From positions 248,001-312,000 of the forward strand of contig NZ_KB907927.1 of NCBI RefSeq assembly GCF_000382285.1: a DNA stretch of 64,000 nt, given 5' to 3'. This DNA is from Solimonas variicoloris DSM 15731 (GTDB lineage: Bacteria > Pseudomonadota > Gammaproteobacteria > Nevskiales > Nevskiaceae). The notes under the pieces are model-generated. The model was not told the origin of the DNA. It made no database searches and saw only the letters and a list, made by a program, of their open reading frames with translations. The position numbers and the translations under genes are program-made. Shown one piece after another: positions 35,984 through 47,791 of the stretch (positions are counted from its first letter, which is position 1; each line of letters starts with the position of its first letter).

Positions 35984-37291
<1,308 letters not shown>

Positions 37292-37404
37292 TTGCAACAT
37301 TCCTCACGGGGTGAAAGAAACGGGTTCCGTAAGCCCTGTACGGACTCCCGACGGAGGTTTCAGTCACGGCGTCGGTGAGCGCGGCGGACCTATTGGGGGC
37401 CGCG

Positions 37405-37449: not shown

Positions 37450-37809
37450 TCACGGTGTCTGTCCGGCCACTGCATTTCCCACCGTCGCCGCGTCGAGACG
37501 CTCGCGCTCGAGCGCCTGCAGTTCTTCCGGGCTCAGGCGGCCGTCGCCGTCGCGGTCGATCTCGTCGAAGCGCCGCAGCAGCACGCGCGGCAGGTCGGAG
37601 CCGGCCAGCTCCTCGCGCGACAGACCCCGATCGCCGTCGCGGTCGGCGGCACGGAACTGCGCCTCGCGCTTGCGGGCCAGCTGTTCGCGCCGCGCTTCCA
37701 GCGCCTGGCGGCGCGCGGCGTCGGCGCCGGGTGGATCGCCCGCCTGCGACGGGTCGCACGCCAGCGCGGCGGCGAGAACTGGCAAAATGAAGCACAGACG
37801 TCGGCGCAT
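37450..37809 (-). CDS. Exported EF-hand calcium-binding protein
   Basis: A 119-residue protein with a signal peptide (RRRLCFILPVLAAALACDPSQAG, possible lipobox around Cys18) and two canonical EF-hand loops, D56-x-D-x-D-R-G-L-S-x-x-E67 and D85-x-D-x-D-G-R-L-S-x-x-E96. It should bind calcium in the periplasm. No catalytic domain. It is divergent from the ABC transporter gene by 40 bp. A functional link to that cassette is not indicated by its sequence. Confidence 0.85.
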   Translation of the reverse strand: MRRRLCFILPVLAAALACDPSQAGDPPGADAARRQALEARREQLARKREAQFRAADRDGDRGLSREELAGSDLPRVLLRRFDEIDRDGDGRLSPEELQALERERLDAATVGNAVAGQTP

Positions 37810-37849: not shown

Positions 37850-38638
37850 ATGCCGCCCGCCGCGCCGCCAGCGCCGCCGGCGGTCTGTCGCCCGGACCCC
37901 AGCACTGAACCTTCGAACGTGATCCACGCCCGTGGCCTGACCAAGCTGTACCGCGGCGCTGAACAGCCGGCGCTGGCCGGCATCGACTTCGACGTCGCCG
38001 CCGGCAGCGTGTTCGGCCTGCTCGGCCCGAACGGCGCCGGCAAGACCACACTGATGTCGCTGCTGACCGGCATCCTGCGCGCCGATGCCGGACGGCTGAC
38101 GGTGGCCGGCGCCGAGCTGCCGGCACAGATCGACGCGCTGCGCCCCCTGCTCGGCTTCGCGCCGCAGGAGCTGGCGTTCTATCCGGCACTGAGCGTCGAC
38201 GAGAACCTGCGCCTGTTCGCCAAGCTGACGCCCGGCGCCGACGCCGCCAGCCGCGCGGCGGCGATCGCCACCGCCGATCTCGGCGCGCACCTGCAACGGC
38301 GCGCCGAGACGCTGTCGGGCGGCCTGAAGCGACGCCTGAATTTCGCGATCGCCCTGCTCGGCCGGCCACGGCTGTTGCTGCTCGACGAACCGACCGCCGG
38401 CGTCGACCCGCAGTCGCGCAACTTTCTGCTCGAACGCGTCGCCGCGCTGCGCGCCAGCGGCGTGACGGTCCTCTACAGTTCGCATTACCTGGAAGAGATC
38501 GAGCGCATCTGCGACGCCGCGCTGCTGCTCGATCGCGGTCGCGTCGTCATGCACGGCGACATCGGCACGCTGCGCGGCGCGCATGCGCGCATCGAGGATG
38601 CCTTCCTGCAACTCACCGAACGGACGCTGCGCGACTGA
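37850..38638 (+). CDS. ABC transporter ATP-binding protein (ABC-2 type exporter)
   Basis: A 262-residue ATPase with Walker A GPNGAGKTT, Q-loop, signature LSGGLKRR, Walker B LLLLDEPTAGVDP and H-switch. The arrangement and the following permease make it an ABC-2 exporter of the drug/lipid/polysaccharide type. The proline-rich first 24 residues are not conserved, and a GTG at 37919 (VIHARGLTKLY) is an alternative start. It is the first gene of a five-gene operon with ACP and ketosynthases, so its cargo is probably the product of this pathway. Confidence 0.93.
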   Translation: MPPAAPPAPPAVCRPDPSTEPSNVIHARGLTKLYRGAEQPALAGIDFDVAAGSVFGLLGPNGAGKTTLMSLLTGILRADAGRLTVAGAELPAQIDALRPLLGFAPQELAFYPALSVDENLRLFAKLTPGADAASRAAAIATADLGAHLQRRAETLSGGLKRRLNFAIALLGRPRLLLLDEPTAGVDPQSRNFLLERVAALRASGVTVLYSSHYLEEIERICDAALLLDRGRVVMHGDIGTLRGAHARIEDAFLQLTERTLRD

Positions 38639-38640
38639 CG

Positions 38641-39840
38641 ATGAACGCCCTGCTCGCCCTGTCGCTGAAGGAACTGCGCCTGCTGGCGCGCGACTGGCAC
38701 GGCCTCGCCGTGCTGTTCGCGGTGCCGGTCCTGTTCATCCTGCTGCTGTCGCTGGCGCTGCGCGATGCCTTCGATCCGGTCGCCAGCGCGCATCTGCGTC
38801 TGCAACTCGTCGACCAGGATCACGGCGCGCTGGCCCGCCAGTTCGCCGCCGAGCTGAAGGCGCTGCCCGGCGTCGAGTTCGACGCCCAGGCCCCGGTGCG
38901 CATCACCGTGCTGCCCGGCTTCTCCGAGCTGCTGGCGACGCGCGCCGACCTCGCCGCCGAACTGCTCGCCGGCCAGACCGAGCCGGCCTTGCTGCAGATC
39001 GACTACGCCGCCAGCACGCTGCCGCAGACGCGCGGACTCGCCGCCCTGAACGTGCGCGGGGCGCTGCTGCAGGTGCAGAGCGACTACCTGTTCCGCGAGG
39101 TGCTCGGCTACTCCGATGCGCGCCGCGCCGAGCTGCGCTATCTCGGCGATCCGCGGCGGCTGCCGATCACCGAGGCCTTCCGCGACGGCGCCGGCCGCAC
39201 GGTCGCGGCGCCGACCGCCGTGCAGCAGAACGTGCCGGGCTGGCTGATCTTCGCGATGTTCTTCGCGGTCATTCCGCTCGCCACCAGCTTCGTCGTCGAG
39301 CGCAGCCAGGGCAGCCTGCTGCGCCTGCGCGTGCTCGGCGTGCCGGCCGGCACCCTGCTGCTGTCCAAGGCACTGCCGTATTACTTCGTCAATCTGCTGC
39401 AGATGCTGGTGATGCTGGCCGTCGGCATCTGGCTGGTGCCGGCGCTCGGCGGCGATCGTCTCGACCCCGGCCACAGCGCGCTCGGTCTGTGGCTGCTCGG
39501 CAGCGCCACCAGCCTCGCCGCGATCGGCCTGGCGCTGTGCGTCGCGGTCGCCGTGCGCACGACCCTGCAGGCGACCATCGCCGGCGGCGCGATCAGCCTG
39601 CTGCTCGCCGCGCTCGGCGGCGTGATGGTGCCCAAGCTGGTGATGCCGCCGGCGATGCAGAGCCTGACCCAGCTGTCGCCGATGGCCTGGAGCCTCGACG
39701 GCTTCTCGCGCCTGCTCGTCGCCGGCGGCGGCGTACCTGACATCCTGCCGGCTGGCGGCGCACTGCTGGCCTTCGCCGCGGTGACGCTCGCGCTCGCCGC
39801 GCTGCTCTACCACCACACTGTGCAATCCCACCCCGGTTGA
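38641..39840 (+). CDS. ABC-2 type permease
   Basis: A 399-residue membrane protein: one N-terminal helix (about 23-43), a large extracytoplasmic domain of about 170 residues, then five helices clustered at the C-terminus. This is the DrrB/YhhJ-type ABC-2 permease layout. It starts 2 bp after the ATPase stop and ends 4 bp before the ACP gene. Conserved segments SLKELRLLARDW and MFFAVIPLATSFVVERSQGSLLRLRV are typical of the family. Export of a lipid-like product is inferred from the neighbours. Confidence 0.9.
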   Translation: MNALLALSLKELRLLARDWHGLAVLFAVPVLFILLLSLALRDAFDPVASAHLRLQLVDQDHGALARQFAAELKALPGVEFDAQAPVRITVLPGFSELLATRADLAAELLAGQTEPALLQIDYAASTLPQTRGLAALNVRGALLQVQSDYLFREVLGYSDARRAELRYLGDPRRLPITEAFRDGAGRTVAAPTAVQQNVPGWLIFAMFFAVIPLATSFVVERSQGSLLRLRVLGVPAGTLLLSKALPYYFVNLLQMLVMLAVGIWLVPALGGDRLDPGHSALGLWLLGSATSLAAIGLALCVAVAVRTTLQATIAGGAISLLLAALGGVMVPKLVMPPAMQSLTQLSPMAWSLDGFSRLLVAGGGVPDILPAGGALLAFAAVTLALAALLYHHTVQSHPG

Positions 39841-39844
39841 TCCC

Positions 39845-40111
39845 ATGAAAGGCTCGCAAGACGCGGCGCTGAAGCTGCGCCTCAAGCAACTGATCGTTCG
39901 CGAAACGGACAAGGCTGTCGATCCGGCGACGGTGCCCGACGACCAGCCGCTGTTCGGGCCGAAGTCGGCGCTGGAACTCGATTCGGTCGACGGCCTGCAG
40001 ATCTCGATGGCGCTGCAAATCGAGTTCGGCCTGCGCGTCGAGGACCCCAAGCAGATGCGCCGCCTGCTCGCCGACGTCAACACGCTCGCCGACCACCTGC
40101 AGCCGCAATGA
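39845..40111 (+). CDS. Acyl carrier protein
   Basis: An 88-residue carrier protein. The phosphopantetheine site is Ser47 in ALELDSVDGLQ, followed by the usual amphipathic helix. The sequence is more basic at the N-terminus than fatty-acid ACP, indicating a dedicated carrier. Its stop overlaps the ketosynthase start by 4 bp (ATGA), so the two are made together and very likely work together. Confidence 0.9.
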   Translation: MKGSQDAALKLRLKQLIVRETDKAVDPATVPDDQPLFGPKSALELDSVDGLQISMALQIEFGLRVEDPKQMRRLLADVNTLADHLQPQ

Positions 40112-41223
40112 CGCGCGCCGTCTATCTGCGCGGCGCGCAGGCGCACTGCGCCGCCGGCGTCGACGCCGGGGCGATCGCCGCGACCTGCCGCGCCGCCACG
40201 CCGGCGCCGGCCGACGTGCGCTTCCGCAGTCTCGGCAACGAGATCGTGCTGCCGTACTTCCGCGCCGCCGGCGTCGAAGCGGCGACGCCCGCTCTCGCCG
40301 CGCGGGCGCTCGGCGACGCCGATCGGGGCACGCCGCGCCTCGGTCTCTACTTCGGCAGTTCCTCGGCCGGCATCGCCGCGCACGAACGCGCCTACGTCGA
40401 GGCGCGCGCCGCCGGCCGCGACGATTTTCCGATCCACTCGCCCGACCAGAGCCGCAGCGCGCGCCGCCTGCACGACACGCTCGGCCTGCGCGGGCCGTAC
40501 TACACCCTGAGCACCGCCTGCTCGAGCGCCGCCAACGCCCTGCTCTACGCCAGCTTCGCGCTGCGCGACGGGGTACTCGACGAAGCGCTCGCGGTCGGCG
40601 TCGAGGAAGAGAATCAGGTTTCGCAACAGGGCTTCTTCAGCATGATGCTGGCGACGCGCACGCGCAGCCGGCCGTTCGACGCGCGCCGCGACGGCATCGT
40701 GCTCGGCGAATGCGCGGCGGCGCTGCACCTGTCGGCGACGCGCGGCGCGGCGCGCTGGCAGCTGCTCGGCGGCGCCAGCCTCTGCGACGTCTCGCACCCG
40801 ACCAATCCGTCGCCGCAGCGCATCGCCGACACCATCGTCGCGGCGCTGGCCGACGCCGGCGTCGCGCCGCGCGAGGTCGCCGCGATCAAGGCGCACGGCA
40901 CCGGCACGCGCGCCAACGACCTTGCCGAAGCGCTCGGCCTGCGCCAGGTGTTCGGCGACACGGTGCCGCCATTCACCTCGCTCAAGCCGGTGTTCGGCCA
41001 CACGCTCGGCGCCTGCGGCGCGCTCGAGACCGCCGCCTTCGTCGCCTGTCTCGAACGCGGTTTCGTGCCGGCGACGGCCGGCTTCGAGGAAGAGGACGAC
41101 GAGCTCGGCATCGCGCCGCTGCGCGCGCCGGCGCCCTGGCGCGGCGGCATCGTCCTACTCAACTATTTCGGCTTCGGCGGCAACAACTGCTCGCTGCTGC
41201 TGCGGGAACTGCCGCCATGCTGA
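40108..41223 (+). CDS. Beta-ketoacyl-ACP synthase (FabF-like)
   Basis: A 371-residue condensing enzyme with the complete catalytic triad Cys138 (STACSSAANA), His263 (KAHGTGT) and His298 (KPVFGHTLGACG). It should extend an ACP-bound acyl chain by decarboxylative condensation. It is shorter than FabF (about 410 residues), with a reduced N-terminal part. It overlaps the ACP gene upstream and the next ketosynthase-like gene downstream, so the two may form a heterodimer like ketosynthase/chain-length-factor pairs. Confidence 0.9.
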   Translation: MTRAVYLRGAQAHCAAGVDAGAIAATCRAATPAPADVRFRSLGNEIVLPYFRAAGVEAATPALAARALGDADRGTPRLGLYFGSSSAGIAAHERAYVEARAAGRDDFPIHSPDQSRSARRLHDTLGLRGPYYTLSTACSSAANALLYASFALRDGVLDEALAVGVEEENQVSQQGFFSMMLATRTRSRPFDARRDGIVLGECAAALHLSATRGAARWQLLGGASLCDVSHPTNPSPQRIADTIVAALADAGVAPREVAAIKAHGTGTRANDLAEALGLRQVFGDTVPPFTSLKPVFGHTLGACGALETAAFVACLERGFVPATAGFEEEDDELGIAPLRAPAPWRGGIVLLNYFGFGGNNCSLLLRELPPC

Positions 41224-42065
41224 ATATCGCCGGTTTCGGACGCCATGTCGGCGCACTCGGCGCCGCGCCGGAGGACTTGCGCGCGCAGCTGCTGGCGCTC
41301 GGCGTCAGCGTGCGCCGCGTCAACCGCTTCATCGAGCTGGCCCTGCTCGGTGCGCTGCGCTGCCGCGCCAACGGTGGCGACATCGGTGCCGACGCGGCCC
41401 TGTACGCGGCGGCCGAGACGCCGATGCTCAACGACTGCGTCAAGGCGCTGCGCTCGACGATCGCCGAGCAGCGTCCGCCGACGCCGTTCGAGTTCATGAA
41501 CATCTCCGGCAACATGGCCGGCTTCTACATCGCCCAGCAACTCGGCATCGGTGGCCCGCAGCTCGCCGTCGCGCGCCGCCACGGCGGCCTCGAAGCCGGT
41601 TTCGAACTGCTCGGCATCAGCCATCGCAGTCACCGCCGCGCGCTGCTCGGCTGTGTCGACGAGGGCGTCTGGCCACTCGACGAGCAACGCGAACGCCTCG
41701 GCCTCGCGGCCGACGCGACGCTGTACGAGAGCAGCCACTGGTTCCACATCGACGCCGATTGCGCGACGCCGCTCGCCCGCGTCGCGGCGCTGCTGCCGCA
41801 GGCCGAGTACGGCGCGATCGAGACCGAGCTGCGCGCACTGCCCGGCGGCACGCGCATCGCCCTGCATCCGCGGCTGGAGCGCGACGCGCCGCCGCTGCCG
41901 GCGACGCTCGAGCGGCTGCCCGGCCACGACCTGCGCGGCCAGGGCGCCTGCGCCGAAGCGCTGTACCGCTATCTGGACAGCGGCGCGGCGGGGCCGTGGT
42001 GCCACCTGAGCCGCGGCGAGGACGGCCTGTGGTCTCTGCTGCGCGCGCAGCCGGGCGCGAGCTGA
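41217..42065 (+). CDS. Ketosynthase-like protein lacking the catalytic cysteine
   Basis: A 282-residue protein. Residues about 88-150 follow the pattern of ketosynthase N-terminal domains (FEFMNISGNMAGFYIAQQLG, then GPQLAVARRHGG, then RALLGCVDEG), but where active enzymes have T-A-C-x-x-G it has A-R-R-H-G-G at 119-124, so the nucleophile is missing. The C-terminal half is too short for a full second thiolase domain and the HGTGT motif is absent. It overlaps the active ketosynthase by 7 bp. By analogy it could be a chain-length-factor-like partner; this is inference from a motif-level alignment done by eye. Confidence 0.7.
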   Translation: MLNIAGFGRHVGALGAAPEDLRAQLLALGVSVRRVNRFIELALLGALRCRANGGDIGADAALYAAAETPMLNDCVKALRSTIAEQRPPTPFEFMNISGNMAGFYIAQQLGIGGPQLAVARRHGGLEAGFELLGISHRSHRRALLGCVDEGVWPLDEQRERLGLAADATLYESSHWFHIDADCATPLARVAALLPQAEYGAIETELRALPGGTRIALHPRLERDAPPLPATLERLPGHDLRGQGACAEALYRYLDSGAAGPWCHLSRGEDGLWSLLRAQPGAS

Positions 42066-42072
42066 GCGCCCG

Positions 42073-43086
42073 CTAGGCGGCGCGCGCCTTCGACCAGGCC
42101 TTGAGCGCTTCGTAGTTGGCGCGCTCCTCGGCGGCACACTCGCGCAGCAGCGCGGCGAGCCGCGCCGGCGTCACGTCCGGCTTCTTGCGCGCGAAATGCG
42201 CGCCGGCCAATGCGAAGCGGCGCCAGGTGTCGCCGCAATCCGTCATGCGCTGCGCGGCAGCGCGCAGCGCCGGATCGTCGAGCCGCTCGCCGGCTTCCTG
42301 AAGGAAGGCCGCGTACATGAAGCGGAAGCCGCCGCCGCCGGTGCCGATCTCCTCCTGCATGCGGATCACGTTGCCGACGAACAGGCGCTGCCAGCGCAGA
42401 TCCGGGTTCTTGCGCTCGAGCGTCTCGATGCGCCGCGCGAGGCCTTCGATCGCGCGCACCCCGACGTATGGGAGCGGCGTGTGCAGCATCATCTTCCAGG
42501 TCTTGCCGATCGCGCGCCGCGTCGCCGCGTGCAGGTCGAACTGCTTCGGCAGCGCCTGCGGGTAGTACAGCAGGCCCTTCGGCGCGAAAGTGCCGCGCGC
42601 GTAGCGCGCCTTGCGCAGGTCGGCGGCGGCGCAGCGCTGCGGCCGGTCGAACACCGGATCGCTGATCAGGTAGTCGTCGCCGTCCTTGCCGTAGACGATC
42701 AGGTTGTGCGCGTTGAAGTGGAAGCGCATTTCCGGCGGGAAGTACGGCAGCCAGTAGACCGAGGCCTGCAGGCCGACCGGACGGCCGCCGGCGAGCTCGG
42801 CGTCGAGCGCCGCCATCGCCGCGTCGGGATCGCCGAAACGCTGCTTGCGCATCGTCAGGCCGAGCGCCTTGCGCAAACCGCCGTAGACGCTGCCCGGCGG
42901 CATGCGGTACGCGGTGATCGGAAAGCCGCCGACCTTGACGAGCGGAAAGTGGAAGAAGGTCAGCGAAGCCGACAGGCCGAGCGCCATCGGCTCGCTGAGC
43001 TCGATGCCGTAGTGGCGCAGCAGGCTGCTGGTCACGCCGGTCTCGCAGTGGCCGGCGTGGCGATGCTCGAAGTTTTCGACTTTCAC
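42073..43086 (-). CDS. BtrH N-terminal-domain protein
   Basis: A 337-residue protein starting at a GTG. The N-terminal half matches the BtrH domain, a cysteine-protease-like fold: Cys14 in GHCETGVTSSLLRHYG, then HFNAHNLIVYGKD and DDYLISDP with the expected His and Asp. BtrH in butirosin biosynthesis moves an acyl group from an acyl carrier protein to an amine. The C-terminal half (about 200-337, helical) resembles the region usually annotated DUF4872. It overlaps the upstream gene by 4 bp (GTGA) and ends 7 bp from the convergent ketosynthase-like gene. The acyl donor would plausibly be the ACP of the facing operon. Confidence 0.82.
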   Translation of the reverse strand: MKVENFEHRHAGHCETGVTSSLLRHYGIELSEPMALGLSASLTFFHFPLVKVGGFPITAYRMPPGSVYGGLRKALGLTMRKQRFGDPDAAMAALDAELAGGRPVGLQASVYWLPYFPPEMRFHFNAHNLIVYGKDGDDYLISDPVFDRPQRCAAADLRKARYARGTFAPKGLLYYPQALPKQFDLHAATRRAIGKTWKMMLHTPLPYVGVRAIEGLARRIETLERKNPDLRWQRLFVGNVIRMQEEIGTGGGGFRFMYAAFLQEAGERLDDPALRAAAQRMTDCGDTWRRFALAGAHFARKKPDVTPARLAALLRECAAEERANYEALKAWSKARAA

Positions 43087-43478
43087 GGCAGTTTCTTGAG
43101 TTCGTCGACGCCCAGGCCAAGCGCGTCGGCGTAGGCCTGCAGACGGTGTGCGCGCAGGCGTGCGAAGGCCTGCGGCTGCAGCGCGCGGCGCACACTGCAA
43201 CGCCAGAAGCCGGTGCTCTGCGCCAGTGTCGGCAGATCCATGCGGCGGGCGTACATGTGATATTCGAGCGGCGAGCACTCGCCGCGCCGGGCACGCTGCA
43301 GCGCCGCCTGCGCGAGCCGCTCGAACTCGGCGATCGCATCGCCGGTGACGGTCGCCTCGACCTGCCAGCCGCTCGAGCCGACAGTCTCGTAGTGGCCATC
43401 GCGGCCTACCGCATAAACCGCCTTGCGCTGCTCGCCGTAGTACGACAGGCCGTCCTGCGGCACCTCGTCGTGCTTCAC
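43083..43478 (-). CDS. Unknown 131-residue protein of the StlD/DarB operon
   Basis: I do not recognise this protein. It starts at a GTG whose GTGA overlaps the stop of the StlD/DarB gene, and its own stop overlaps the BtrH-like start in the same way, so it is certainly part of this operon. The sequence is soluble, with an N-terminal beta-rich segment (DGLSYYGEQRKAVYAVG, then YETVGSSGWQVEATV) and a helical C-terminal two-thirds containing PLEYHMYARRMDLPTLA and RLRAHRLQAYADAL. A single cysteine (FWRCS) and no nucleotide-binding motif are seen. Confidence 0.75.
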   Translation of the reverse strand: MKHDEVPQDGLSYYGEQRKAVYAVGRDGHYETVGSSGWQVEATVTGDAIAEFERLAQAALQRARRGECSPLEYHMYARRMDLPTLAQSTGFWRCSVRRALQPQAFARLRAHRLQAYADALGLGVDELKKLP

Positions 43479-44653
43479 GGACCGACCACCGTCAGGGCGA
43501 CGAAGGCAATCGAGAAGCGACCGCTCTCCGGGACGTAGCAGAGAATGCGCTGGCCCGGGCGCAGCGCCTGCGACCGCATCAGGTCGTCCAGCAGCAGGTA
43601 CATCGACGCCGAGCCGACGTTGCCGCGGTAGCGCAGGTTGGTGAACCAGCGCGAACGCGGAATCTTCCAGTCGTCCGGCATGACTTCCCACATCACGTCG
43701 GCGAAGTGCGCCGACGAGTAATGCGGCACATACCAGTCGACCTCGTCGACGCGCAGGCCGCGGCGCTCGATCATCGCCTCGAAGGCGCGCCGCGAGCTGA
43801 TGCGGATGCCGTCCTCGAGCAGGCGCACGTCCTGCTTCAGCGACAGCAGCGAACGGTCGGCGACGGCCTGCATCGAGCCGAGCTCGCGCCAGCCCATCAG
43901 GCGTCCTTCGGCGGTCTTCTCGGCGCCGGCGTACATGCAGGTCGGCAGTTCGTGCGCGTACGACCACTGGTCGATCCAGTCGATGCGCAGCGACAGCCCG
44001 TCGGCGCGCGCGTGGTCTTCCAGCAGCATCGCGCCGGCGCCGTCCGACAGCATCCAGCGCAGAAAGTCCTTCTCGAAGGCGATGACCGGCTTCTTCTCGA
44101 GCGCGGCGACGCGCGCCTCGTTCTCCGCCTCGAAGTTCCAGGCGCGCATGAAGGTCGAAGCCGTCTCCGAGCCGGTGGCGACGGCATTCCGCGTCAGTCC
44201 GGCCAGCACCGACATGTAGGCGTACTTCAGCGACATCACGCCGGACACGCAGATGCCGGCAGTCGCAACGACCTCGCAGGGATGGCTGCCGAGTTCGCCG
44301 TGCACCATCACGCCATGATTCGGCGCGATCTGATCGGGCGTGCTCGTGCCGCAGGCCAGCAGTTCGATGTCGTCGATCGCGAAGCCGTCGCCCGCCAGAT
44401 CGCGGACCGCCTCGGCGGTCAGCTGCGCATTGCTGTGCGTCTGGCGGCCGGATTCCGGATCGAACACGTAGTGCCGCGCCTGGATGCCATTGCTGCGCAG
44501 CACCAGCGCGCGCGCGCGCGACGGCCTGCCGCCAACCTGACCGAGCACCGCCTCCATGCGGTCATTGTCGACCGGAGCGTTCGGCAGGGCTGTGCCGATA
44601 CGCGTGATGAAGACTCCGGCCGGAGCAGATTTTTCCGAAGAACGAGCACTCAT
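43475..44653 (-). CDS. StlD/DarB-family beta-ketosynthase
   Basis: A 392-residue type III ketoacyl synthase-like enzyme. The nucleophile is Cys135 in ATAGICVSGVMSLKYA; the partner histidine is in WYVPHYSSAHF and the asparagine in YRGNVGSASMY. StlD/DarB enzymes join two acyl chains and cyclise them to cyclohexanediones, the precursors of dialkylresorcinols. The adjacent DarA-like gene stops at the base before its ATG, as in a shared operon. The substrate chains cannot be deduced. The sequence around the active site departs from FabH, supporting the DarB assignment. Confidence 0.87.
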   Translation of the reverse strand: MSARSSEKSAPAGVFITRIGTALPNAPVDNDRMEAVLGQVGGRPSRARALVLRSNGIQARHYVFDPESGRQTHSNAQLTAEAVRDLAGDGFAIDDIELLACGTSTPDQIAPNHGVMVHGELGSHPCEVVATAGICVSGVMSLKYAYMSVLAGLTRNAVATGSETASTFMRAWNFEAENEARVAALEKKPVIAFEKDFLRWMLSDGAGAMLLEDHARADGLSLRIDWIDQWSYAHELPTCMYAGAEKTAEGRLMGWRELGSMQAVADRSLLSLKQDVRLLEDGIRISSRRAFEAMIERRGLRVDEVDWYVPHYSSAHFADVMWEVMPDDWKIPRSRWFTNLRYRGNVGSASMYLLLDDLMRSQALRPGQRILCYVPESGRFSIAFVALTVVGP

Positions 44654-45595
44654 TTACCTCGACACCCTCAGCAATTCCGTCCCCGACCCGGACGGTTGTT
44701 CGAAATAGGCCTTCTGCGCACGTTGGCGCTCGGCCGTCAGCGGCCGCAGCGCGGCACGCAGCAGCATCGTCACCGGCACGATGGTGACGATCATGGCGAT
44801 CAGGAAAGCGGCGTAGACCAGCAGCACCGGACGCCGCCGCCACGAGCCCTGCGGGCCGAGCGCGCGGATCAGGCGTCCCCAGATCTGGAAGCTGCGGCGG
44901 CCGATCCGCTCGCTCGGCAGCAGACGCACGTCGGCCTTGACGGCGCCGAGCCCGCGCAGCACCGGCGTGCGGCCGTCGAGACGGCCGTCGTGCAGCGCCG
45001 CGGCGAGCGCGGTGCCGAAGCGCGCGGCGCCGGCGATCTGCGCATCGCTCAGGCCGGCCGCCGGCAGGCCCCAGAACGCTTCACGCCGGCCGCTGAGCAT
45101 CCAGCGCGGTGTGGTGATGAAGGTCGCGAAGCTGGGGCCGGCGTCGGTCAGCACGATGTTGTCGGACAGCCGCGCGCCGGCCGCGGCGAGCAGGTCCTTG
45201 ACGCACTCCTGGGCGAGCAGCCACATGTTGCGGCAGCCGATCAGCGTCACCACCGGCGTATCGCGCAGCAAGCGCCGCCCCGGCTCGGAACGCAGGAACG
45301 CGGTCACCGGCGGCGCCGGCGACAGGAACCAGACGGTGTACGCGAGGATCACGAGGTCGTAGCGCGCGTCGGCGGCGATCGGCAGCGGCTGCAGCGGCGG
45401 CGGATCCAGATGTACCGCCTCGGGAAACTGATCGAAGAAACGGAAGAACGGCCACGGGAACGGATACGGCTCGCGTGGCTGCAGCGGGCAGTGGTCGACG
45501 GCGATGCCGGCCGCGCTCAGCGGCGCGCACACCGATTCGGCAAGCCGGCGCAATTGGCCGGTCTGCGAGTAGTAGACCAACAGAACGCGTTTCAT
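44654..45595 (-). CDS. DarA-like flavodoxin-fold protein (dialkylresorcinol pathway type)
   Basis: A 313-residue protein with a flavodoxin-like N-terminal domain (VLLVYYSQTGQLRRLAE is the FMN phosphate loop, then YDLVILAYTVWF) and a C-terminal membrane segment (PVLLVYAAFLIAMIVTIVPV, about 265-287). Proteins of this type accompany DarB and are thought to aromatise the cyclohexanedione product to a resorcinol. AAGGGGA precedes the ATG. The 233 bp upstream hold an 8-bp-stem hairpin (45632-45652) and no other gene. Confidence 0.78.
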   Translation of the reverse strand: MKRVLLVYYSQTGQLRRLAESVCAPLSAAGIAVDHCPLQPREPYPFPWPFFRFFDQFPEAVHLDPPPLQPLPIAADARYDLVILAYTVWFLSPAPPVTAFLRSEPGRRLLRDTPVVTLIGCRNMWLLAQECVKDLLAAAGARLSDNIVLTDAGPSFATFITTPRWMLSGRREAFWGLPAAGLSDAQIAGAARFGTALAAALHDGRLDGRTPVLRGLGAVKADVRLLPSERIGRRSFQIWGRLIRALGPQGSWRRRPVLLVYAAFLIAMIVTIVPVTMLLRAALRPLTAERQRAQKAYFEQPSGSGTELLRVSR

Positions 45596-45828
45596 TCCCC
45601 TTCCCGCCCGCATCCCCGCACCCAAACGACAAGGGCGCGGTTTACGCGCCCTAGTCACCAGCAATCGGATGCGAGTGTAATCAGAACCTCGACATCGCGC
45701 TCCGCAGGCCGGCGCCGGACTGCGACGCCCGGCACACGGGGCGCGGAAACCGCGAACTATAGCCACGCGCTTCTGCGCCCCGCAACGTCGAACACCGCGG
45801 TGTCAGGCATCCGACAGAAACGCCGCCC

Positions 45829-47193
45829 TCAGGCCAGCGACGTCCGCTCCAGCGGCAGCAGATGGCGATGCAGTTCGCAGCGCAACAGCAGCAGATTGAG
45901 CGCGAGCTGCAGCAGCGTCCCGCCGATCGACAGCGCCCATAGCCAGACCGGCGCGAAATCCGCATGCGCCGACAGCAGCAGACCGACGGTGACGATGAAG
46001 CCGAAACGTACGACCGTACCGAACAGCGAGGGCAGCGTGTTGCCGAAGCCGGCGAACACGCCGCCGCAGGCCGCCACGACGCCCATCGCCAGCAGGTTCC
46101 ACGAGATCCAGCGCAGGAACTCGGCGCCATAGCGGATGACCGCCGGATCGGCCGAGAACGGCCGCATCAGCGCGTCCGGCGCCAGCTGGAAGACGAGGCA
46201 GAACAGGCCGACGGCGGCCAGGTTCAGCTTGAGGGCCTCGACGAAGGCCTGCCGCACGCGGCCCGGCTGTCCGGCGCCGAAGTTCTGGCCGACGATCGCC
46301 GCGGTCGCGAAACTGATCGCCATCGCCGGCATCACGCCGAACTGCAGCACGCGCATGCCGATGCCGAACGCCGCCTGCGGCGCCGCGCCGAAGGAGCGCA
46401 GCATCGCCATGATGAAACCGAAGTAGACCGCCAGCACGCCGAGTTCGAGCCCGGACGGCAGGCCGATGCGGACCATGCGCCGCCAGACCGCCGGCTGCGG
46501 CCGCCAGGCCGCCGCGTGGCGATCGAGGAAGCGATCCTGGCGCAGCACGTGGATCAGCAGGCCGGCCATGCCGATCAGCACCGCGATCAGCGTCGTCAGC
46601 GCCGCCCCGGCGACGCCGAGCGGACGGCCGGTCCCCCAGCCGAAGATCAGCACCGGCGCCAGGACGATGTTGAGCAGCACCGTGCCGAGCTGGGCGAACG
46701 ACGCCGAGCGCACGTCGCCGACGCCGCGCAGCGCGGCAGACAGCACGAACATCGGGATCTGCAGCGCCATCGCCGGAATGAACGGTACGAGGAACTCGCG
46801 CGTCAGGCGCGCCACCTCGGCGCTGCCGGCGAGGCGGTCGCTGTACGGGCCGTAGAGTGCCAGCGCGACCACCAAGAACAGCAGCGCCAGCAGCGCCGAC
46901 AGCAGCTGCGACTGCGTGAACAGCCGGCGCGCCTCGTCGAAGTCCTTGCGCCCGGCCGCCTGCGCGACCAGCGCGGTGGCGCCGACCGACAGCGTCTGCG
47001 CGACCGCCATCAGCGCCATCATCAGGTTGCTGCCGAGGGCGACCGCGGCGACGGCATCACGGCCGAGACGGCCGACCCAGAAGATGTCGATCAGGCCATA
47101 CGCCGTCTGCACCAGCATCGTCAGCAGCATGAAGCCGCTCATCCGCAGCAGGTGGCCACGGACGGCGCCGCCGGTCAGGTCACGCGCGGCCAT
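45829..47193 (-). CDS. MATE-family efflux transporter
   Basis: A 454-residue integral membrane protein with about twelve helices in two repeated halves, each starting with the family pattern (LTMLVQTAYGLIDIFWVGRLG and, in the second half, LPSGLELGVLAVYFG). MATE proteins export organic cations and drugs or lipid-linked sugars using Na+ or H+ gradients. Substrate unknown. It lies upstream of the DarA-like gene on the same strand but 233 bp away, so it may or may not belong to the pathway. Confidence 0.9.
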   Translation of the reverse strand: MAARDLTGGAVRGHLLRMSGFMLLTMLVQTAYGLIDIFWVGRLGRDAVAAVALGSNLMMALMAVAQTLSVGATALVAQAAGRKDFDEARRLFTQSQLLSALLALLFLVVALALYGPYSDRLAGSAEVARLTREFLVPFIPAMALQIPMFVLSAALRGVGDVRSASFAQLGTVLLNIVLAPVLIFGWGTGRPLGVAGAALTTLIAVLIGMAGLLIHVLRQDRFLDRHAAAWRPQPAVWRRMVRIGLPSGLELGVLAVYFGFIMAMLRSFGAAPQAAFGIGMRVLQFGVMPAMAISFATAAIVGQNFGAGQPGRVRQAFVEALKLNLAAVGLFCLVFQLAPDALMRPFSADPAVIRYGAEFLRWISWNLLAMGVVAACGGVFAGFGNTLPSLFGTVVRFGFIVTVGLLLSAHADFAPVWLWALSIGGTLLQLALNLLLLRCELHRHLLPLERTSLA

Positions 47194-47302: not shown

Positions 47303-47791
47303 TCAGGACTTCTCGTGAATCGGCGTATCCGAAACGACGATGCCGTCGGCATCGGCGTACAGCCACTGGCCCGACTTGAAGGTCACGCCGGCAAAGGTGA
47401 CGACACGATTGCGGTGTCCGGTGTGCAGGCCCTTCTCCGACTTGCGCGGGTGAGTGCCGAGCGCCTTGATGCCGATTTCCTGCTCGGCCAGTTCCTCGGA
47501 GTCACGGACGAAGCCGTTGACGACGATACCGGCCCAGCCGTTGTCGACACCGAGCTGGCCGAGGTTGCCGCCGACCAGCGCGCAGCGCGCCGAGCCGCCG
47601 CCGTCGACCACCAGCACCTGGCCGTTGCCGCGCTCCTCGAGCAGTGCGCGCACCATCGTGTTGTCCTCGAACACCTTCAGCGTGACGACGGGGCCGTGGA
47701 AGGCCGACACGCCGCCGAAATCGCCGAACACCGGATCGGCGACCTGCGCCTCGGGGTGGGCATCGGAAAGATCGGTCGTCGCAAAGCTCAT
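47303..47791 (-). CDS. rraA: Ribonuclease E activity regulator RraA
   Basis: A 162-residue protein of the RraA/menG-like fold. Landmarks are [18 protein letters not shown] and [13 protein letters not shown]. In E. coli RraA binds RNase E and lowers its activity; some homologues are 4-hydroxy-4-methyl-2-oxoglutarate aldolases, but the C-terminal region and length agree with RraA. A perfect AGGAG seven bases before the ATG lies inside the end of dsbB, coupling the two genes. Confidence 0.93.

Follow-up and report, generated by a model that had tools for sequence, protein, structure and literature searches.

The DNA analysed here (the window, 64,000 nucleotides) corresponds to bases 248001-312000 of contig C3 of Solimonas variicoloris DSM 15731, whose genome comprises 4.12 Mb in 48 contigs, and it carries a cassette of nine genes related to those for dialkylresorcinol (DAR) pigments. 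The plus-strand operon holds darF, darI, darC, darJ and darK, and the minus-strand operon holds darA, darB, darD and darE (Table 1). These letters follow the Azoarcus cluster described below; the NCBIfam names DarG and DarH differ from darG and darH of Azoarcus, which are toxin-antitoxin-like genes. The two operons converge, with the plus operon stopping at 42065, the minus operon stopping at 42073 and 7 bp between the stops, in agreement with an earlier note on this DNA. The gene junctions are as tight as that note had claimed: 4-bp overlaps join darC to the ketosynthase gene darJ (40108-40111), darD to darE (43083-43086) and darB to darD (43475-43478), the darA stop directly abuts the darB start (44654/44653), and darJ overlaps darK by 7 bp (41217-41223). 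The two ABC genes are separated by 2 bp, and the permease gene lies 4 bp from that for the acyl carrier protein (ACP). A MATE gene heads the minus row, 233 bp upstream of darA.

Table 1. Genes of the converging operons (window coordinates) and of the polyene cluster on contig C1 of the same genome; L096, L097 and L174 are locus labels.
Feature	Position	Strand	Support
darF-like ABC exporter ATP-binding protein	37850..38638	+	PF00005 101.5 bits, cut-off 25
darF-like gene, choice of start	37850 ATG or 37919 GTG	+	
darI-like ABC-2 permease	38641..39840	+	PF12698 97.2 bits, cut-off 31.6
darC-like acyl carrier protein, carrier Ser47	39845..40111	+	Ser in 72/72 rows
darJ-like ketosynthase, Cys138/His263/His298	40108..41223	+	PF02801 and PF00109 over cut-off
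darK-like cysteine-less protein, chain-length-factor-like	41217..42065	+	structure model, fold match
darE-like putative BtrH-related acyltransferase (NCBIfam DarH_acyl)	42073..43086	-	NF053550 460.7 bits, cut-off 300
darD-like, 131 codons (NCBIfam DarG_fam)	43083..43478	-	NF053536 150-153 bits, cut-off 70
darB, StlD/DarB-family ketosynthase, predicted to form the DAR ring	43475..44653	-	NF005293 550.5 bits, cut-off 450
darA-like, flavodoxin-type N terminus, proposed DAR aromatase	44654..45595	-	motif conserved; PF00258 below cut-off
MATE exporter, probably not a core part	45829..47193	-	PF01554 169.8 bits
N-terminal-type ketosynthase protein	polyene cluster, C1		PF13723 98.5 bits, cut-off 25
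LpxL-type acyltransferase	polyene cluster, 18215-19117 of L096		
AGP-type acyltransferase	polyene cluster, 4138-4977 of L097		
Trp-halogenase-like FAD enzyme	C1:74117-75334 (L174:1117-2334, minus)		PF04820 80 bits, cut-off 21
FkbO/Hyg5-type chorismatase	polyene cluster, C1		PF21168 124.2 bits, cut-off 27; TIGR04444 223.1, below cut-off 325
Second ketosynthase	polyene cluster, C1		PRK09116 700.1 bits, cut-off 470
Dehydratase-like protein, further FabZ-like proteins, AMP-ligase, two ACPs, FabG	polyene cluster		
Glycosyltransferase, thioesterase, LolA, RND-like membrane protein (exporter-like)	polyene cluster		

On the minus strand, the closest solved structure to DarB is the StlD ketosynthase (5gk0_A, 450.5 bits), and Cys135 and His311 are present in 73/73 aligned rows; the resorcinol_DarB exception model NF053539 scored 477.2 bits, below its cut-off of 550. 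The S-Q-T/S-G motif of DarA occurs in 71 of 72 rows, the remaining one having a gap there. The earlier description of this protein as a DarA-like flavodoxin stands as far as the motif goes but is weak as a label, with PF00258 at E 0.052, below its cut-off, and only weak flavoprotein matches among solved structures (best E 0.0077). Aromatase and cyclase are the roles listed for DarA and DarB of Azoarcus (Table 1 of PMC3949708), and DAR was made in E. coli by darA and darB of Chitinophaga pinensis (PMC3992019). With DarB scoring over the StlD/DarB family cut-off and the roles demonstrated for homologues, the DarAB chemistry put forward for Solimonas is probably right: DarB would condense and cyclise two acyl thioesters, and DarA would aromatise the ring to yield DAR. 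The 131-residue product encoded between darB and darE had been listed as an unknown; the gene itself holds up, but its product belongs to a named family, since the NF053536 score exceeds the cut-off, and it corresponds to darD in Azoarcus and to DarG_fam in NCBIfam.

On the plus strand, DarC is a divergent ACP (NF006617 at 31.6 bits, below the cut-off of 70; PF00550 at E 0.03, likewise below cut-off). DarJ keeps Cys138, His263 and His298 in 70/70 rows; its best solved relative is 6qsp_A, which we take to be ApeO, an aryl-polyene ketosynthase, and it shares 36% identity over 301 aa with the polyene ketosynthase of the same genome. DarK has no Pfam match, its sequence retrieved nothing from the solved structures, and its profile gave faint ketosynthase matches only (best E 0.00078). 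The structure model of DarK (pLDDT 91.1, pTM 0.90) aligned over its full length with the ishigamide chain-length factor 6kxd_B (Z 25.1, 276 aligned residues, rmsd 3.4), and this ketosynthase fold lacks the nucleophile cysteine, which bears out the earlier label of a cysteine-less ketosynthase. To the N-terminal-type ketosynthase protein of the polyene cluster DarK is distantly related (hhalign E 5.7e-5, probability 66). Because the DarJ active site is complete and DarK combines a chain-length-factor fold with the absence of cysteine, as in the ishigamide pair (6kxd), the two look like a second ketosynthase/chain-length-factor pair, a pairing that we infer from gene adjacency. DarK is nevertheless short for a chain-length factor, at 282 aa in Solimonas. 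Its counterparts measure 287-298 aa in several Desulfobacterota loci and, among the rows listed, 167-193 aa in Pseudomonas and 159 aa in two Pasteurellaceae, lengths that look as if the C-terminal half of a chain-length factor were being lost.

The arcuflavin cluster of Azoarcus and the polyene half of the pathway

The genes azo0283-0293 of Azoarcus sp. BH72 are listed as darK, darJ, darC, darI, darH, darG, darF, darE, darD, darB and darA in the gene table of PMC3949708, which labels darJ a ketosynthase, darC an ACP, darI an ABC permease, darF an ABC ATPase and darE a BtrH-like peptidase. All of these except darG and darH have a single Solimonas counterpart, as judged by family and domain and not by aligned sequences. 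According to PMC3949708, arcuflavin, the yellow pigment of this strain, combines a xanthomonadin-like polyene with DAR, and the authors predict that an ester links the two. The two clusters differ in that Azoarcus alone has PilT-like and prevent-host-death-like genes (darG/darH) between darI and darF, and Solimonas alone a MATE gene beside darA; moreover, the Solimonas genes form two converging operons, and those of Azoarcus are listed as one continuous series.

In both bacteria the polyene genes are found elsewhere in the genome. The polyene-type ketosynthase model PRK09185 has a single match over cut-off in the whole Solimonas genome (C1:72040-73218, 500.7 bits, cut-off 407), and around it, at about 69.9-88.3 kb of C1, we found a xanthomonadin-like polyene cluster with a chorismatase (Table 1). 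This cluster shares with the arc genes of Azoarcus a chorismatase, an AMP-ligase, a halogenase-like enzyme, LolA, a ketosynthase and an N-terminal ketosynthase; the halogenase and chorismatase genes of Azoarcus are adjacent (arcA and arcB; PMC3949708). Flexirubin clusters, as described for C. pinensis and Flavobacterium johnsoniae (PMC3992019), likewise combine DarA/DarB with aryl-polyene genes and a DAR ester pigment. However, flexirubin starts from tyrosine, whereas Solimonas has an FkbO/Hyg5-type chorismatase. Flexirubin proper was rejected as the product, given that its specific NCBIfam models miss their cut-offs (flexirubin_DarG, 110.1-112.6 against 170 bits; FlxB, 255.6 against 340; LolA2_flexi, 59.5 against 125).

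The cassette thus represents an already described type of pathway, that of arcuflavin, and not a novel one. We dropped the earlier idea that its final product is not predictable and may be new, because the gene set in Table 1 of PMC3949708 matches and a polyene cluster is present in the genome. With that cluster and the dar gene set in the same genome, the likely product is an arcuflavin-like polyene-DAR ester, so that a definite chemical prediction can be made for Solimonas where the cassette had seemed to allow none. We consider it quite likely that the two operons represent the DAR and coupling sides of such a pathway, with reactions and product predicted from gene content, co-conservation and folds. 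Besides DAR formation by DarB and DarA, the aryl-polyene cluster, whose genes are in place, would build an ACP-bound polyene acid from a chorismate-derived hydroxybenzoate starter. DarE would then probably take the polyene from its carrier protein as an acyl-enzyme and pass it to a DAR hydroxyl, forming the ester. DarC together with DarJ/DarK would probably supply the joined product with a dedicated carrier or with a final elongation, and the DarF/DarI ABC exporter would probably move that product across the membrane.

Co-conservation of the two operons

We kept 80 DarE loci out of 136 confirmed DarE relatives, 63 of them at least 20 kb long and 17 shorter; the closest relatives are those of Solimonas flava DSM 18980 (96%) and S. 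soli (82%). Profile searches of the 80 loci found DarD in 79, DarF in 75, DarB in 73, DarC and DarA in 71 each, DarI and DarJ in 69 each and DarK in 64, some DarF and DarJ matches being likely paralogues (e.g., L049 and L087). The complete nine-gene set is present in 60/80 loci and in 54/63 of those of at least 20 kb. DarK and DarE lie on opposite strands, as in Solimonas, in 48 of these 60 nine-gene loci, and on the same strand in the other 12. Partial loci include L077, without DarD, DarB and DarA, as well as L083 and L095.

Co-occurrence was also scored in genomes not chosen by DarE, namely 369 drawn evenly from the class plus 14 control genomes. Over cut-off in the 369 genomes were DarB in 21, DarE in 18 and the polyene ketosynthase in 82. 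All 18 DarE-positive genomes fall within both of the other sets, and all 21 DarB-positive genomes are positive for the polyene ketosynthase (hypergeometric P 2e-15, genomes treated as independent). DarE over cut-off without DarB was found in none of the 369 genomes, in which G013 and G138 hold distant relatives (103 and 126 bits). In the three genomes drawn from the same order as Solimonas (G025, G171 and G279), neither DarE nor the polyene ketosynthase exceeded the thresholds applied, which makes the distribution of the system around Solimonas patchy.

The surroundings of DarB were taken for 20 of the 21 DarB-positive genomes, the 21st being that of the window itself. In twelve of the 18 DarE-positive genomes, the window's own included, F-I-C-J-K and E-D-B(-A) are linked within a single stretch, darA being lost at a contig end in one of them (G234); this is not so in G072, G131, G157, G179, G268 and G347. 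Near DarB in the three DarE-negative genomes, none of F, I, C, J, K and D was found. A genome-wide DarK profile search, which covered 79 of the 82 polyene-positive genomes, detected DarK in 17/18 DarE-positive genomes (the exception being G131) and in 0/3 DarB-positive, DarE-negative ones, a small number, and gave one weak match (E 5.8e-7) among 58 polyene-only genomes. A complete F-I-C-J-K operon is present in five of the genomes with unlinked operons and adjoins polyene genes in three, its neighbours being fabG with the second polyene ketosynthase in G157 and G268 and the AMP-ligase with other polyene genes in G072. Being intact when unlinked, F-I-C-J-K appears to act as a module that accompanies DarE, beside either half of the pathway. 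Co-conservation had been set beforehand as the test of the claim that the two operons form one system, and they pass it, because they are co-conserved whether linked or not.

DarA/DarB lie at L150 in G221, L153 in G198 and L163 in G104, the three DarE-negative genomes, which possess a polyene ketosynthase and lack DarD and DarK as well. Two further genes beside darA are common to L150 and L163.

DarE as candidate joining enzyme

Polyene-DAR pigments are widespread. The arcuflavin cluster description in PMC3949708 names no enzyme that joins the two halves, and for flexirubin a ligase-like protein, FlxW, is suggested in PMC3992019. DarE contains a BtrH_N domain (PF14399, 158.5 bits, cut-off 29.7). 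Among solved structures its sequence retrieved only an unrelated collagen match and its profile designed coiled coils and apolipophorin, so that only predicted models were informative. A model built from 26 sequences (mean pLDDT 90.9, pTM 0.89) matched, over the full length, AziU3 (8gs1_D; Z 25.0, 310 aligned residues, rmsd 4.1), CtaG (9qvl; Z 24.8, 295 aligned, rmsd 3.2) and CcbD (9dks_A; Z 22.0, 304 aligned), at sequence identities of only 10-18%. Next came papain/C39-type peptidases, which cover the N-terminal half of DarE only (Z 13 and lower).

Cys14, His123, His127 and Asp143 of DarE do not vary in any of the 80 rows that have a residue at these positions. By residue order and spacing, C14/H127/D143 would correspond to the triad of CtaG, whose structure entries, to go by their titles, include the variants C11A, H128A and D144N as well as a PHBA complex; entries for CcbD are titled as complexes with carrier-protein domains. 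BtrH acylates ribostamycin with a group delivered by an ACP. For CtaG, transfer of hydroxybenzoate from one carrier protein to the peptide of another has been proposed (PMC6772006). In our model DarE is a papain-like transferase resembling CtaG, AziU3 and CcbD, distinguished from these by its proposed substrates, a polyene as donor and a phenol as acceptor in ester formation. The earlier note had the BtrH-like protein transfer an ACP-bound acyl group to an acceptor; family, fold and conserved triad all agree with acyl transfer, and transfer from a carrier is predicted.

The papain-like fold with invariant Cys, His and Asp makes DarE the best joining candidate, and we regard it as probably the enzyme that forms the polyene-DAR ester. 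As a clear candidate for this step it offers named residues to mutate, and together with DarK it may serve as a genome marker predicting bacteria with joined pigments. We see roughly even chances for a broader proposal, in which DarE, F-I-C-J-K and DarD make up a coupling-and-export module that marks producers of polyene-DAR hybrids. DarE would be the missing ester synthase, producing a phenyl ester out of a carrier-bound aryl polyene, DarJ/DarK/DarC would pass on or complete the polyene, and the module would travel as a unit, beside either half.

Several observations weigh against this assignment of a coupling side to the cassette. DAR production from Azoarcus in E. coli is said in PMC3949708 to need only the DAR proteins, and the joining enzyme proposed for flexirubin is the FlxW ligase (PMC3992019). 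In G104, G198 and G221, DarB and the polyene ketosynthase occur without DarE and DarK, so these bacteria either make unjoined parts or join them with another enzyme. Among the 14 control genomes, one is over the DarB cut-off and none is over that for DarE or the polyene ketosynthase. Two Desulfobacterota loci (L018 and L025) have D, E, C, J and K, with no A, B, F or I within the 10-kb flank, and two Pseudomonas loci (L047 and L057) carry E, D, B and A only.

The earlier note had the ACP/DarJ/DarK set make the acyl substrate of DarB, in which case its co-occurrence with DarE would reflect the type of DAR and not coupling. This is possible, if on balance doubtful. A condensing pair is plausible from the conserved DarJ triad (70/70) and DarC serine (72/72), and the operons lie together in most loci, with nine genes in 60/80. 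On the other hand, the distribution of the pair follows DarE and not DarB, DarK being absent from the three DarB-positive, DarE-negative genomes (n=3, small), and in G157, G268 and G072 its operon adjoins polyene genes, not darAB.

It seems unlikely to us that another enzyme, such as a FlxW-like ligase or a polyene-cluster acyltransferase, performs the joining within the arcuflavin-type pathway, leaving DarE some other transfer, e.g., the loading of the DAR precursor or the ACP. The FlxW proposal (PMC3992019), the two acyltransferase-type genes of the polyene cluster (LpxL-like and AGP-type) and the three genomes with both halves and no DarE speak for such an arrangement. However, DarE accompanies both halves in 18/18 genomes and occurs in 0/61 polyene-positive, DarB-negative ones, and the folds nearest to its own are those of condensing enzymes or of transferases that depend on carrier proteins. 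Furthermore, LpxL/AGP-type genes are also found in polyene clusters without DAR, as judged from PMC3949708, where an acyltransferase is listed as conserved. That the operons are unrelated neighbours converging by chance is scarcely credible: they lie on opposite strands with separate transcription, and some loci hold one part only, but nine genes stay together in 60/80 loci and 54/63 of at least 20 kb, DarK persists in 17/18 DarE-positive genomes even when unlinked, and the Azoarcus genes are listed as a continuous series (PMC3949708).

Neighbouring genes and further matches

The MATE protein had been considered as an exporter of the system. We dropped it as a component because a relative neighbours the cluster in just 2/80 loci, both from Solimonas. 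The G+C content is 0.69-0.73 across the cassette region, matching the remainder of the window, and the flanks look like housekeeping genes, with isocitrate lyase (35984-37300) on one side and an RraA-like protein (47303-47791) on the other. A plasmid search with DarE returned 59 records, all below 60% identity and mostly from Acinetobacter; among the 20 matches listed, each is either a BtrH-domain protein or without annotation. Outside the window, ketosynthase matches at C3:222857-223681 and C6:83937-92181 lie inside long frames (2835, 3135 and 1644 aa) and are likely parts of large modular synthases. A small EF-hand protein is encoded on the minus strand at 37450-37809, divergent from the plus operon.

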